NCBI GenBank assembly: GCA_024398955.1
Contig: JAKSIG010000014.1
Location: forward strand, 1-64,000
Reading direction: 5' to 3'
DNA length: 64,000 bases
DNA from: Fibrobacter sp.
GTDB taxonomy: Bacteria > Fibrobacterota > Fibrobacteria > Fibrobacterales > Fibrobacteraceae
The translations under genes and the position numbers were made by a program. This document shows, piece by piece, positions 46,888 to 52,312 of this stretch (position 1 is its first letter; every line of letters begins with the position of its first letter). The notes below the pieces were generated by a model that had not been told where the DNA came from, searched no databases, and saw only the letters and a list, made by a program, of their open reading frames with translations.

Positions 46888-47715
46888 GTGAAAAAACTTG
46901 AAATACATGTATTCCCCAGCAAGACGACATCGGGCAAAAGTTACCGCGTGTCACTGCTTGGCGCAGTTGTTGCCGTTGTTGGTGTTATTGCGGCCGTCGC
47001 TGGCTTTTTGATGTTCTCGCCGGTCAGTATTGTAGACAACGTAACAAGTGGAAACGTGAGCAATGTCTATCGCCAGAATGCAACCATCAGGAAGGAGCTT
47101 AAGTCCATTCGTGCTTCTGTAGATTCCTCTATCCTTAAGGCCGAAGAAACCAGGATCTTGCGCGATAGCACCTTGAAGATGGGTGGCCTTGGCTTTACTC
47201 TGGAAACGGTTTCCGACGAGGAACGGGCTGCCCGCAAGCGCAAGAGCCTTATGGAGCTGGAGCATTCCTTTCGAAAGCTAGTCGATGCCCTGGAGAAGGA
47301 TTCTTCCCTGGCCGCAAAACTGCCGGTACTTCACCCCATGAAGAGCAATCATGCCGTCAAGAAACGTTTCGAGATGGTCTACGACCCCTTTACCGACAGC
47401 CAGCTGCCTCACCGCGGTATAGACTACGTGGCGGTGGAAGGGGACACTGTCTACGCAACGGGAGCGGGTGTCGTAACTGAGGTCCGCAGTCATCGTGGTT
47501 TTGGACTTTCCATGAAGGTGGAACATGTTAAGGGCGTGCGTTCCTTCTATGCCCACCTTGGCAAGGCCATCGTTGCGCAGGGGGCCTTTGTGAAACGTGG
47601 CGAACCCATTGCAATCATCGGCGAAAGCGGCCGCGAAACGAGCGTCGGCCTTCATTACGAAATCCGTCTAGACGGTAATTCCATCAATCCCGAAAGCTTC
47701 TTCATTACAAAATGA
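46888..47715 (+). CDS. M23/LytM-domain membrane protein, catalytic His replaced
   Basis: This 275-aa protein begins with GTG, has a TM helix at ~18-40, a coiled region, and a C-terminal LytM domain (~155-270). Zn-binding residues H175 and D179 (HRGID) are present, as are H223 (YAHL) and H256. The first histidine of the HxH motif, which acts in catalysis, is Gly254 (VGLHYE). It may therefore be an amidase activator like EnvC, not a peptidase. It is 8 bp after the 90-aa gene, and its stop overlaps the HAD gene start (ATGA). Confidence 0.85.
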   Translation: MKKLEIHVFPSKTTSGKSYRVSLLGAVVAVVGVIAAVAGFLMFSPVSIVDNVTSGNVSNVYRQNATIRKELKSIRASVDSSILKAEETRILRDSTLKMGGLGFTLETVSDEERAARKRKSLMELEHSFRKLVDALEKDSSLAAKLPVLHPMKSNHAVKKRFEMVYDPFTDSQLPHRGIDYVAVEGDTVYATGAGVVTEVRSHRGFGLSMKVEHVKGVRSFYAHLGKAIVAQGAFVKRGEPIAIIGESGRETSVGLHYEIRLDGNSINPESFFITK

Positions 47716-48683
47716 CAAACTCCGCTTTTGAACAGAATGTGATCGCCATGGTGTGGGACTGCGACAAGACCCTCATCAGTTCCTATATGCAGGAACCCTT
47801 GTTCCGCCGCTTCAATGTGGATGGAGGCAAGTTCTGGGCCGAAGTCAACGCTCTCAAGACCCGCTATGGCGCCCAGGGAATTTCTGTCAATTCCGATACG
47901 AGCTACCTGAACCACATTCTGACTTACGTAAAGGCGGGAATCTTTAAGGGACTTAACAACAAGATGCTGCGGGAATTTGGCCGGGAACTGAAATTTTACC
48001 CGGGACTTCCCCATTTCTTTGGCGAAGTGAAGAAACTGATCGAAGACGACCCGAAGTACAAGGCCTTTGACATTCGCCTGGAACATTATGTTGTTAGTAC
48101 CGGCTTTGCCGAGACGATTCGCGGGAGTGCCATTGCAGACTTTGTAGATGGAATTTTTGGTTGTGAATTTATTGAAGATGTTCTGCAGCCCGGCTTCCTG
48201 GATTCCCCGCGTCATCCTGAGGAGCGAAGCGACGAATCCGGCGAGATTTCCCAGATTGCCTGCGCCCTAGATAACACTTCCAAGACCCGCTATCTTTTTG
48301 AGATCAACAAGGGCAGCAACAAGTACCCTGAAACCATCGACGTAAATTCTTCCATCGCCCGCGCAAGTCGCCGAGTCCCTTTCGAAAACATGGTGTATGT
48401 GGCAGACGGTCCCAGTGACGTGCCTGCATTCAGCATCCTGAATTATAATGGCGGCAGCACATTTGCAGTTTACCCCAAGGGCGATGTGAATGGCATGCGC
48501 CAGGTGGAATCCTTGCGTAGAGATGGCCGTGTTCAGATGTATGGTGAAGCGGATTACTGCGAGGCGACCACATCCTGGTTGTGGCTTACAGAAAGGGCCC
48601 GTGCCATTGCCGACAAGATTGTGGCGACTAAGCAGGCTGCTATCAAGAACAGTGCCGGCGCGCCTCCGACTCATTTGCAGTAA
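47712..48683 (+). CDS. HAD-superfamily phosphatase with translated repeat insertion
   Basis: This 323-aa protein has HAD motif I WDCDKTL (nucleophile Asp16, acid Asp18) and motif IV VADGPSDVPAF near residue 235. A cap domain lies between, including FYPGLPHFF. Residues ~165-178 (PRHPEERSDES...) are the translation of a dispersed repeat and sit between motif II/III regions. The frame remains open. Substrate unknown; serine phosphatase-like enzymes are the closest guess. It overlaps the M23 gene by 4 nt. No terminator seen before the convergent membrane protein gene. Confidence 0.82.
   Translation: MTNSAFEQNVIAMVWDCDKTLISSYMQEPLFRRFNVDGGKFWAEVNALKTRYGAQGISVNSDTSYLNHILTYVKAGIFKGLNNKMLREFGRELKFYPGLPHFFGEVKKLIEDDPKYKAFDIRLEHYVVSTGFAETIRGSAIADFVDGIFGCEFIEDVLQPGFLDSPRHPEERSDESGEISQIACALDNTSKTRYLFEINKGSNKYPETIDVNSSIARASRRVPFENMVYVADGPSDVPAFSILNYNGGSTFAVYPKGDVNGMRQVESLRRDGRVQMYGEADYCEATTSWLWLTERARAIADKIVATKQAAIKNSAGAPPTHLQ
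48208..48246. repeat. Dispersed repeat inserted in frame in the HAD gene
   Basis: The DNA encoding PRHPEERSDES matches the 'GTCATCCTGAG...CGAAGCGA' repeat type known as scattered copies in many genomes; recalled, not searched. It contains the imperfect inverted unit GAGCGAAGC. No copy was seen elsewhere in this window. Confidence 0.6.
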
Positions 48684-48974: not shown

Positions 48975-49006
48975 CTCGTAATTCATAATTCGTAATTCAT
49001 AATTAT
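48975..49006. repeat. TAATTCR heptamer repeat, copy 3
   Basis: CTCG followed by TAATTCA, TAATTCG, TAATTCA and TAATTAT, 74 bp before the RNase G gene. Confidence 0.75.
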
Positions 49007-49079
49007 ATTTATGGTCCCTAGTATTTTAGGGGGAAAGTTTTACTGACTATCCTGTTTATTGAACTACTTTAGGAATTGA

Positions 49080-52000
49080 ATGACGAACAAGTGTAAGTGT
49101 GGAATTCTGATTAGCAAGACGCCCTACGAGAAGCGCTACGCCATCATGGAAGATGGTGAGTTGGTGGAACTGATCGTAGATGGGGGGAATGCTACCCAGA
49201 TTACCGGAAATATCTATAAGGGAATTGTCAAGAAGATCGTCGCCGGCAAGTGTGCGTTCGTGGACATTGGCCTGGACATGGTCGGCAGCCTTGCAAAGGA
49301 AGAAGTGGTTGACCGCAGTGCTTCCAGGGGAAGGAATCACGAAGACGATGCTCCCGTGGCTGACATTGGGCAGTTGCTCCATGTGGGTGACGAGGTCATG
49401 GTCCAGGCAACCAGTGAACCTTCTAAGGATGAATCGGGTGTAGAACACCGCCCGCAGCTGACAATGCGTCTGAATCTTGCCGGATCCCTTCTTGTCTGCA
49501 TGCCCGGTTCAGACTTGATCCGAGTTTCCAAGCGTGAACGCGACCCGGCTCGCCGCACCGACATGAAGCGCATGATCAACCGCCTGAAGGCGAAGGATGT
49601 GGGCTATATTGTCCGTACCGAAGGCGTGAACGCATCCGAAGTGGAACTGACCCAGGAAATGCGTGGTCTAGAAGCCAAGTGGGAAGGCATCAAGGAAAAC
49701 TATGCAAACCTGGATGGCGCGGGCCTCGTCTATGAGGAATCCAATTCCACCAAGCGAGCCATTGGCGAATACATCAACGAGAATACGGACTATGTCTATA
49801 TCGACAACCGCGACGAGTATTTTGCCATTCGCGATGTGCTGAAGACCATATCTCCAGACACGTTGGACAAGGTGAAGCTTTGGAGTTCCGCCGAAAGCCT
49901 GTTTGAATATTTCAAGGTGGAAAACGATTACGCCCGCTCCCTGCAGCGTACCGTGCCCCTGCCTCGAGGCGGAAACCTGGTCATTGAGCAGACGGCGGCC
50001 CTCGTTTCCATCGACGTGAATACCGGTCCCAAGGTTCATGGAAAGGACCAGGGCAAGATTATTCTTGAAACCAATATCGATGCCTGCCGTGAAATCGCAA
50101 AGCAGTTGCGTCTTCGTGACGTGGATGGTCTTACCATCGTAGACTTTATCGATATGGAGACCGAGGCGGACAATACCACGGTCTACAACGAGTTCTGCAA
50201 GGCAATTCGTCGCGACAGGGCCAAGGTGGAACCTGCGACCATTAGCCAGTTCGGCCTGATGGAAATCAGACGTAGGCGTGTTCATGTGGATCCCGTCGGC
50301 GGAAAGACTCATGTGTGCCCGGTCTGTTCTGGTGGTGGCCGTACCGCCACCCTGGAAAGTACCCTGGGAATGATCGACCGCTGGATGGCTCGCGCCAGTG
50401 CCAAGGGTAACATGAATGCAGTGACCTTGGTGACCAATCCCTACGTGGTTGATGTGCTGGCCAAGGACCGCAGCCGCATGTTCAACTATCTGGAATACAA
50501 GCATGGCATGTCCATCGACCTGATCCAGGATGAAAACGCCCATGTGAACCAGTTCTGGATGTACAACGAGAACAAGGAAGACATTACAGACCAGTACAAC
50601 TTTGCCGACATGGGCAAGGCCGAAAAGACAGCCCGTCACGATAACCGCAACAAGGCCAAGCGCGAAATCCTCATCAGCAAGACCCCTTACGAAAAGCGTA
50701 TCGCCATCATGGAAGATGGTGATTTGGTGGAACTTGTGGTGGAAGGCGTATCCTCCAACCGCGTGCTGGGCAACATCTACAAGGGCGTTGTCCAGAAGGT
50801 CCTGCCTGCCCTGAAGGCTGCCTTCATCGACATCGGCATGGAAAAGGCAGGCTTCCTCCATCAGGAAGATGCCATGGACCGTTCCGAGCTGTTGCGCCGA
50901 GAATACGGTGACGACGATGACGAAAGCGGTTCCTCCAAGGAAATTCCTATCGACGAAATCCTCAAGGAAGGTCAGGAAATCATGGTGCAGGTGGTGAAGG
51001 AACCCATCAGTACCAAGGGTGCCCGTTTGACTACGCACTTGAGCTTCGCCGGTCGCTTTCTTGTCTGCATGCCGGGAACCAACTTCATTGGCGTGTCCAA
51101 GCGTGAACGTGATCCGGCAAAGCGCCGCGAATTCAAGAAGGTGGTTCGCCGCCTGAAGGGTCGCGACGTGGGATACATTGTCCGCACCAACGGTCTCAAC
51201 GAATCCGAATTTGAAATCAACAAGCAGATGCGTGAGCTGGAAGCCAAGTGGGAAGAAACGAAGTTCAACTTCGAGAACCAGCCGGCCGAAACCTGCATCT
51301 ACGAGGAATCCGATTCCATCGAACAGACTGTCCGCGAATACTTCAGCGACAATACCGATGTGGTCTACATTGATAACCGCGAAGAGTATTACGCCCTCCG
51401 CGACTACCTGCAGCGCCTGTCCCCGGACAAGCTGAACAAGGTGAAGCTGTGGAACGAAGACGTCAGCCTGTTTGAAAACTTCAAGATTGAAAATGACTAT
51501 GCTCGCTCCCTGCAGCGCAAGGTTCCTCTGTCCGTTAACGGTCATCCCTGCGGTTGGCTGACAATTGAACAGACTGAAGCCCTCGTTTCTATCAAGGTGG
51601 AGTGCGGCGCAACATTGAATGATTGTGCCGTCGCCTGCCACGAGATTGCAAAGCAGCTGCGTCTCCGCGACGTTGGTGGTCTTATCATCATCAAGTTCCC
51701 TGACTTTGGCAAGGACTCGAATCCCGATCAGCACTTCCTCGACAGCTATCGCGACTTCATCTATCAGGAATTCCGTAAGGCGATTCGCCGCGACAAGGCT
51801 CCTATCAGCCCGTCTCCCGTTAGCCCCTTCGGCCTGATGGAAGTGACCCGCAAGCGCGTCCGCGTGAACCTCATGACCGAAAAGACTGAAGTCTGCTCCG
51901 TGTGCTGTGGCGGTGGCCGCATTGGCTCCGTCAATGGCACTCTTGGCATGATCGACCGCTGGATGAGCCGTGCCCGCAACAAGGGCCGCATGCGTGAGGT

Positions 52001-52187
52001 TACATTGGTCGTTAGCCCCGCCCTGGTGGATGAACTTTGCAAGAACGGTTGCGACATCTATCGCTACCTGGAAGCAAAGCACTTCATGAAGATTAACCTG
52101 GTGGAAGACGAGTACGCTCACGTCAATCAGTACTGGATGTACGACAAGAACAACGAAGATATTACCGAACTGTACAATTTCGCTTAA
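49080..52187 (+). CDS. Tandem double ribonuclease G/E with inactive second copy
   Basis: This 1035-aa cytosolic protein contains two complete RNase G-like copies (residues ~6-520 and ~525-1035). Each starts ILISKTPYEKR and ends in a ...NQ(F/Y)WMY...DIT...YNFA block. Each has an S1 RNA-binding part (GNIYKG, FIDIG), 5'-sensor VGYIVRT, and Cys Zn-link (CPVCSGGG / CSVCCGGG). Copy 1 keeps metal-binding D312 (SIDVNTG) and D355 (IVDFIDM). In copy 2 the same positions are K839 (SIKVECG) and K872 (IIKFPDF), so it cannot bind Mg in the normal way. Bacterial RNase G is ~490 aa. It acts in rRNA/mRNA processing. The start ATG 49080 follows TACTTT by 9 nt; AGGAA could be a weak ribosome-binding site. Confidence 0.93.
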   Translation: MTNKCKCGILISKTPYEKRYAIMEDGELVELIVDGGNATQITGNIYKGIVKKIVAGKCAFVDIGLDMVGSLAKEEVVDRSASRGRNHEDDAPVADIGQLLHVGDEVMVQATSEPSKDESGVEHRPQLTMRLNLAGSLLVCMPGSDLIRVSKRERDPARRTDMKRMINRLKAKDVGYIVRTEGVNASEVELTQEMRGLEAKWEGIKENYANLDGAGLVYEESNSTKRAIGEYINENTDYVYIDNRDEYFAIRDVLKTISPDTLDKVKLWSSAESLFEYFKVENDYARSLQRTVPLPRGGNLVIEQTAALVSIDVNTGPKVHGKDQGKIILETNIDACREIAKQLRLRDVDGLTIVDFIDMETEADNTTVYNEFCKAIRRDRAKVEPATISQFGLMEIRRRRVHVDPVGGKTHVCPVCSGGGRTATLESTLGMIDRWMARASAKGNMNAVTLVTNPYVVDVLAKDRSRMFNYLEYKHGMSIDLIQDENAHVNQFWMYNENKEDITDQYNFADMGKAEKTARHDNRNKAKREILISKTPYEKRIAIMEDGDLVELVVEGVSSNRVLGNIYKGVVQKVLPALKAAFIDIGMEKAGFLHQEDAMDRSELLRREYGDDDDESGSSKEIPIDEILKEGQEIMVQVVKEPISTKGARLTTHLSFAGRFLVCMPGTNFIGVSKRERDPAKRREFKKVVRRLKGRDVGYIVRTNGLNESEFEINKQMRELEAKWEETKFNFENQPAETCIYEESDSIEQTVREYFSDNTDVVYIDNREEYYALRDYLQRLSPDKLNKVKLWNEDVSLFENFKIENDYARSLQRKVPLSVNGHPCGWLTIEQTEALVSIKVECGATLNDCAVACHEIAKQLRLRDVGGLIIIKFPDFGKDSNPDQHFLDSYRDFIYQEFRKAIRRDKAPISPSPVSPFGLMEVTRKRVRVNLMTEKTEVCSVCCGGGRIGSVNGTLGMIDRWMSRARNKGRMREVTLVVSPALVDELCKNGCDIYRYLEAKHFMKINLVEDEYAHVNQYWMYDKNNEDITELYNFA

Positions 52188-52219
52188 TTTGTTCGTGACA
52201 ATCTGATGTAATCCAATGG

Positions 52220-52252
52220 GAACCTCGTAAGCACTGCGAGGTTCCTTTTTAT
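52220..52252 (+). terminator. Terminator after RNase G
   Basis: GGAACCTCG / CGAGGTTCC stem (52220-52228 and 52238-52246) followed by five T. Confidence 0.88.
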
Positions 52253-52288
52253 GCAAGGGGCTAGTCGGAATCGCTGTCAGCATAGAAA

Positions 52289-52312
52289 GACCCCGCACTT
52301 GCAATGCGGGGC
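52289..52312 (-). terminator. Terminator of the fibro-slime protein gene
   Basis: Minus-strand stem GCCCCGCA / TGCGGGGT followed by CTTTCT. It lies 37 bp after the stop of 52349-56389. Confidence 0.7.

Follow-up and report, generated by a model that had tools for sequence, protein, structure and literature searches.

The question raised by this locus, a gene of Fibrobacter sp. contained in the window (the whole stretch of 64,000 nucleotides that was analysed), is how an RNase E/G protein is meant to work when two enzyme cores are joined in one chain and only one metal triad is present per two cores. RNase E/G initiates mRNA decay in many bacteria. The gene product is best read as a covalent RNase E/G pseudo-dimer that retains one of the two composite active sites of the dimer, a reading given a probability of about 75%, in which the pairing of the copies and the binding and cutting of RNA are inferred. 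Nothing relevant on a tandem RNase E/G, or on a Fibrobacter RNase E/G, was found in the open literature, which is not proof of absence.

The claim of the preliminary description that two full RNase E/G cores share a single frame of 1035 codons was borne out. The frame has no internal stop, both halves match the family model TIGR00757 (two stretches, 670.5 bits in total versus a cut-off of 325.95), RNase_E_G was matched twice in the Pfam scan, and the Pfam and NCBIfam scans of the protein returned the RNase E/G and S1 families and nothing else. The order of the domains in each copy is RNase H, S1, 5' sensor, DNase I, Zn-link and small domain, and the junction between the copies (50560–50720) is in-frame coding DNA of an ordinary kind. 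The features of the gene are listed in Table 1. An antisense open reading frame of 878 aa lies opposite the double gene (49668–52304, minus strand), and antisense frames of 1300–1500 aa lie opposite rpoB and rpoC in Fibrobacter (loci L092–L111); both are most likely artefacts of codon usage. A frame of 2737 codons with an RNase E/G match in another genome was rejected as a candidate, being a long antisense frame at a gene of normal length.

Table 1. Positions in the window of the double-length RNase E/G gene, its domains and its flanking signals
Feature	Position	Strand	Remarks
Promoter-like site, upstream, weak	48982–49009	+	9/12 consensus match only; region barely richer in sites than its shuffles
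Double-length RNase E/G gene (P0001)	49080–52187	+	1035 codons; sole RNase E/G match in the genome
Copy 1, residues 1–503, putative catalytic half	49080–50588	+	Alignment to E. coli RNase E
Copy 1 S1 domain, diverged	49197–49466	+	F67 position is S70 (codon 49287); K112 position is E118 (codon 49431)
Copy 1 5'-sensor domain	49467–49751	+	Diverged overall; pocket residues R179/T180 kept
Copy 1 DNase I domain	49941–50306	+	D312/N314/D355 intact (codons 50013, 50019, 50142); triad in 20/20 species
Copy 1 Zn-link motif CPVC	50307–50348	+	C413, C416
Copy 1 small domain	50349–50588	+	Alignment
Basic linker between copies	50589–50648	+	20–36 aa across species
Copy 2, residues 524–1035, putative RNA-binding half	50649–52184	+	Alignment to E. 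coli RNase E
Copy 2 S1 domain, conserved as in single-copy enzymes	50760–51035	+	F582, F592, K646 kept
Copy 2 5'-sensor domain, conserved	51036–51320	+	R702/T703
Copy 2 DNase I domain, catalytic residues lost	51510–51884	+	K839/E841/K872 (codons 51594, 51600, 51693)
Copy 2 Zn-link motif CSVC	51885–51926	+	C939, C942
Copy 2 small domain	51927–52166	+	Alignment
Terminator-like hairpin 3' of the gene	52218–52246	+	12 pairs, then a T run; consensus match only

The double-length gene was found in 20 of the 80 Fibrobacter species searched, and nearly all of the remaining species carry a single core of about 515 aa. The source genome (88% complete) holds no RNase E/G match besides the double gene. 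No second RNase E/G gene was matched in any of the double-carrying genomes, several of which are listed at 99–100% completeness, and none of the 80 species showed both forms; the possibility that a further RNase E/G gene makes the double dispensable was rejected accordingly. In a sample limited to Fibrobacterota (120 genomes, 38 genera), two cores in one frame were absent from all other genera. A second, longer RNase E/G-like gene (about 675–870 codons) stands beside the usual one in some Fibrobacterota outside Fibrobacter (seven genomes, same class). The named records with the double-length gene come from gut metagenomes, including those of horse, rumen, yak and buffalo.

Residue equivalences were obtained by aligning each copy with E. 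coli RNase E, the metal triad of which is D303/N305/D346. The alignment confirmed that both metal-binding aspartates (D312 and D355) are present in copy 1, where the triad is complete in all 20 double-carrying species. In copy 2 the position of D346 is occupied by Lys in 20/20, and the triad is thus absent, whereas the position of D303 is variable (D in 11 species, K in 7 and N in 2). The lysines described earlier at both aspartates of copy 2 are therefore real in this species (K839 and K872) but not general, being shared by only 7 of the 20. Since D346 is replaced by Lys throughout and D303 in some species only, the former is taken as the shared, older change and the double-Lys state seen here as derived. 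It is a matter of speculation that the Lys at D346 occupies the metal site and pairs with D303 where this is kept.

The RNA-binding residues are distributed the other way round. The S1 uracil pocket (F57/F67/K112) and the 5'-phosphate pocket (R169/T170) are all present in copy 2, and the retention by this copy of its S1 domain, its 5'-sensor Arg-Thr and its Zn cysteines was upheld by alignment. In all 20 doubles Phe67 of the uracil pocket survives in copy 2 but has been replaced in copy 1 by V, S or I. K112 is kept by copy 1 in 15 of 17 distinct sequences, this species being an exception. The preliminary description had treated copy 1 as a fully normal enzyme; its triad is intact, but its S1 and 5'-sensor domains have diverged. 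Nevertheless, the 5'-phosphate pocket of copy 1 (G124, V128, R169 and T170) is kept in all distinct sequences, and judging from these residues copy 1 may still be able to bind RNA ends. The Zn-link cysteines (equivalents of C404/C407) are present in both copies of all 20 doubles; in this species the second motif reads CSVC instead of CPVC, with its cysteines retained.

The divergence was found to be reciprocal by domain. Identity to the single-copy Fibrobacter enzymes was 53% for copy 1 and 93% for copy 2 in S1, 58% and 94% in the 5' sensor, and 80% and 76% in the DNase I domain, respectively. Positions were scored as invariant when unvarying in the single-copy Fibrobacter and outgroup enzymes, and the doubles were represented by 17 distinct sequences. 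Copy 2 retained 67/67 such positions in S1 and the 5' sensor and copy 1 only 32/67 (p = 1e-13), with 25 of 38 otherwise invariant positions varying in the S1 domain of copy 1 alone; in the DNase I domain copy 1 retained 49/58 and copy 2 28/58 (p = 6e-5), sites being treated as independent in both tests. The dN/dS values, calculated per domain by a simple pairwise method for two separate clades of doubles (A and B), followed the same pattern. For S1 they were 0.17 and 0.16 in copy 1 (clades A and B) and 0.04 and 0.05 in copy 2, for the 5' sensor 0.22 and 0.25 in copy 1 and 0.03 and 0.02 in copy 2, and for DNase I 0.06 and 0.11 in copy 1 and 0.19 and 0.20 in copy 2. Bootstrapping of the copy 1/copy 2 ratio put 1 outside the 95% range for each of the three domains in either clade, although dS in the S1 domain of copy 1 is near saturation and its omega is rough. 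The S1 and 5'-sensor values of copy 2 are about as low as those of single-copy enzymes. As every dN/dS is well below 1, neither half is decaying freely and both are under selection, on different parts. On the evidence of the sequences, the decay appears reciprocal, with copy 1 keeping the cutting site and copy 2 the RNA-gripping surfaces.

The ordinary RNase E dimer contains two mirror-image composite sites. In RNase E the protomers are joined by Zn, and S1 and the 5' sensor move jointly as one clamp. In the E. coli enzyme, RNA held by one protomer is cut by the partner protomer (PMC3997798). The +2 base is predicted to be sandwiched between F67 and K112, the scissile phosphate lying where two protomers meet (PMC8522691). 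The small domain of one protomer adjoins the RNase H domain of the other protomer in the principal dimer (PMC6202311). In the proposed pseudo-dimer, the site retained after tandem duplication in early Fibrobacter would be formed by S1 and the 5' sensor of copy 2 together with the DNase I domain of copy 1. The lost site, S1 of copy 1 with DNase I of copy 2, would have decayed on both sides, copy 2 losing D346 to Lys and later D303, and copy 1 losing Phe67 and much of its S1 and 5'-sensor domain. The copies are inferred to pair across a shared zinc, the Zn-link thus being intramolecular, with copy 2 binding and copy 1 cutting, activity itself included in the inference. The short linker from the small domain of copy 1 to the N-terminus of copy 2 would suit the adjacency of small domain and RNase H domain, and two fused proteins might form a pseudo-tetramer with two working sites instead of four. 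If each copy were instead to bind and cut its own RNA in cis, no intact site would be left in the double proteins. The pseudo-dimer with a dead half for RNA binding or 5'-end sensing had been put forward in the preliminary description; the retained positions and dN/dS values support it, with the amendment that copy 1 is not a whole normal enzyme, and the half-decay of this supposedly active copy is the stronger evidence for it. Which DNase I site each S1 faces was assigned without coordinates, on the strength of the papers cited, and these are clearest on the 5' sensor. An AlphaFold model of the whole chain (pLDDT 47, pTM 0.26) was too poor to judge pairing; copy 2 also gave a weak model (pLDDT 59.8), in which good agreement with solved RNase E domains was limited to single domains (TM about 0.85 for S1 and DNase I, normalised to the target).

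The tree and wider survey proposed earlier were carried out, and placed the origin of the double in one early duplication within Fibrobacter. The first copies cluster in one clade and the second copies in another, the branching of the two being mirrored, and separate duplications in two Fibrobacter clades were rejected by AU tests (p = 1.7e-4 and 1.2e-4); a single event, inferred to be an in-frame tandem duplication early in the genus, is thereby established. The doubles are scattered across the rpoB/rpoC tree, by which a single species clade of doubles was rejected (5 changes, AU p = 2e-92). The gene tree of the doubles fits the rpoB/rpoC tree (AU p = 0.14), and so does that of the singles. 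No match to rpoB was obtained in 25 of 61 Fibrobacter genomes, some listed as 94–99% complete, which is probably an effect of metagenome binning or of the data available. Many singles and doubles have flanking genes in common (dnaN, a small gene, an M23 peptidase and a HAD-like gene, with a PA14-domain protein on the other side), which places the exchange at one locus. A HAD-like gene (47712–48683) has a hypervariable loop near 48200–48260, which reads RHPEERSDES in this species and other repeat-like strings, such as ASPKGEA or RHPERSEAERS, in relatives; it looks like the repeated in-frame insertion of short dispersed repeats at one spot.

The simplest reading of this distribution is that an old double was inherited down both main clades and was later replaced by a single gene or differentially lost. 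Transfer among near relatives is not excluded and cannot be told apart from vertical descent with replacement or loss. A tentative extension, which has the odds somewhat against it, is that the one-site heteromeric pseudo-dimer is now obligate through irreversible complementary decay. Crossing-over between the copies would combine the decayed S1 of copy 1 with the dead catalytic domain of copy 2; a lineage could therefore escape only if it took up an intact single gene from one of its relatives. If true, this would account for the scatter of the 20 double species among the 80 over the species tree.

Other explanations of the double were weighed. That copy 1 is self-sufficient and pairs with copy 1 of another molecule, copy 2 serving as a pseudoenzyme with a regulatory or inhibitory role or as an additional tether for RNA, is unlikely but is the strongest competitor, given that copy 1 retains its triad, its Zn cysteines and the residues of the 5'-phosphate pocket, and that a non-cutting second site acting as a tether has been discussed for RNase E (PMC3997798). 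Against it stand the universal loss of Phe67 and the variation of the S1 domain in copy 1; a pair of first copies would be impaired on both S1 sides, yet it is S1 and the 5' sensor of copy 2 that are constrained as tightly as in single-copy enzymes. Conservation supports a pair of copy 1 with copy 2 but not that the pair lies within one molecule, and there is a small chance that the chain is cleaved in its linker, which is basic and of variable length (20–36 aa), to give a heterodimer of separate subunits, or that partners from two chains are domain-swapped. Cleavage is disfavoured by the frame having stayed unbroken in 20 species, though splitting into two genes would be easy, and no defined cleavage motif was noted in the linker.

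It is very improbable that copy 2 is a decaying duplicate, as yet functionless. Its DNase I domain is relaxed and D303 was lost after D346 and in some lineages only, but a spare copy would be expected to decay everywhere, and the dN/dS of 0.02–0.05 and the unbroken set of invariant positions in its S1 and 5' sensor are contrary to this. Least credible of all is an assembly error, or the reading of two neighbouring genes as a single one, even though the named double-length records in the collection are all metagenome-assembled genomes. A frameshift or misassembly at the junction had been named beforehand as what would refute the double; none was found, and the same frame with the same Lys recurs in the 20 species, which stem from different studies, hosts and assemblies, while the trees of the two copies mirror each other and, among the doubles, agree with the rpoB/rpoC tree. 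The recurrence and the ordinary in-frame junction led to its rejection.

The Fibrobacter double shares with the RNase E/G family its domain order, the match of both halves to the family model and, in copy 1, the triad. In the family, however, there is a single core per chain, assembled into homodimers or tetramers with a triad of its own in each, whereas the double has two fused cores, of which one is, judging by its residues, catalytically dead and the other is degenerate on its RNA-binding side. The closest likeness is to tRNase ZL (ELAC2-type), which consists of fused tRNase ZS copies and likewise goes back to the tandem duplication of a homodimeric ribonuclease; one half still binds the substrate through the flexible arm but no longer has its metal residues, and the other has given up the arm and remains catalytic (PMC3714273). 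tRNase ZL differs in its unrelated metallo-beta-lactamase fold, in processing tRNA 3' ends, in its restriction to eukaryotes and in the reversed order of its halves, the N half binding and the C half cutting. The metallo-beta-lactamase fold was not matched in the Fibrobacter double by the Pfam and NCBIfam scans, and the resemblance is one of evolutionary logic and probably of working principle, not of kinship. Unlike tRNase ZL, the Fibrobacter double has sister species in which the gene is still undoubled.

The trans model of RNase E/G, in which one subunit holds the RNA and the partner cuts it, rests mainly on crystal structures. In the Fibrobacter double this model has apparently been tested by evolution, the two halves having lost the parts that are assigned to one of the two sites. 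The protein offers an asymmetric enzyme, ready-made by nature, for mutating binding and cutting independently within a single chain. It is also a counterpart in bacteria to tRNase ZL, and sister species with the undoubled gene are at hand for comparison.
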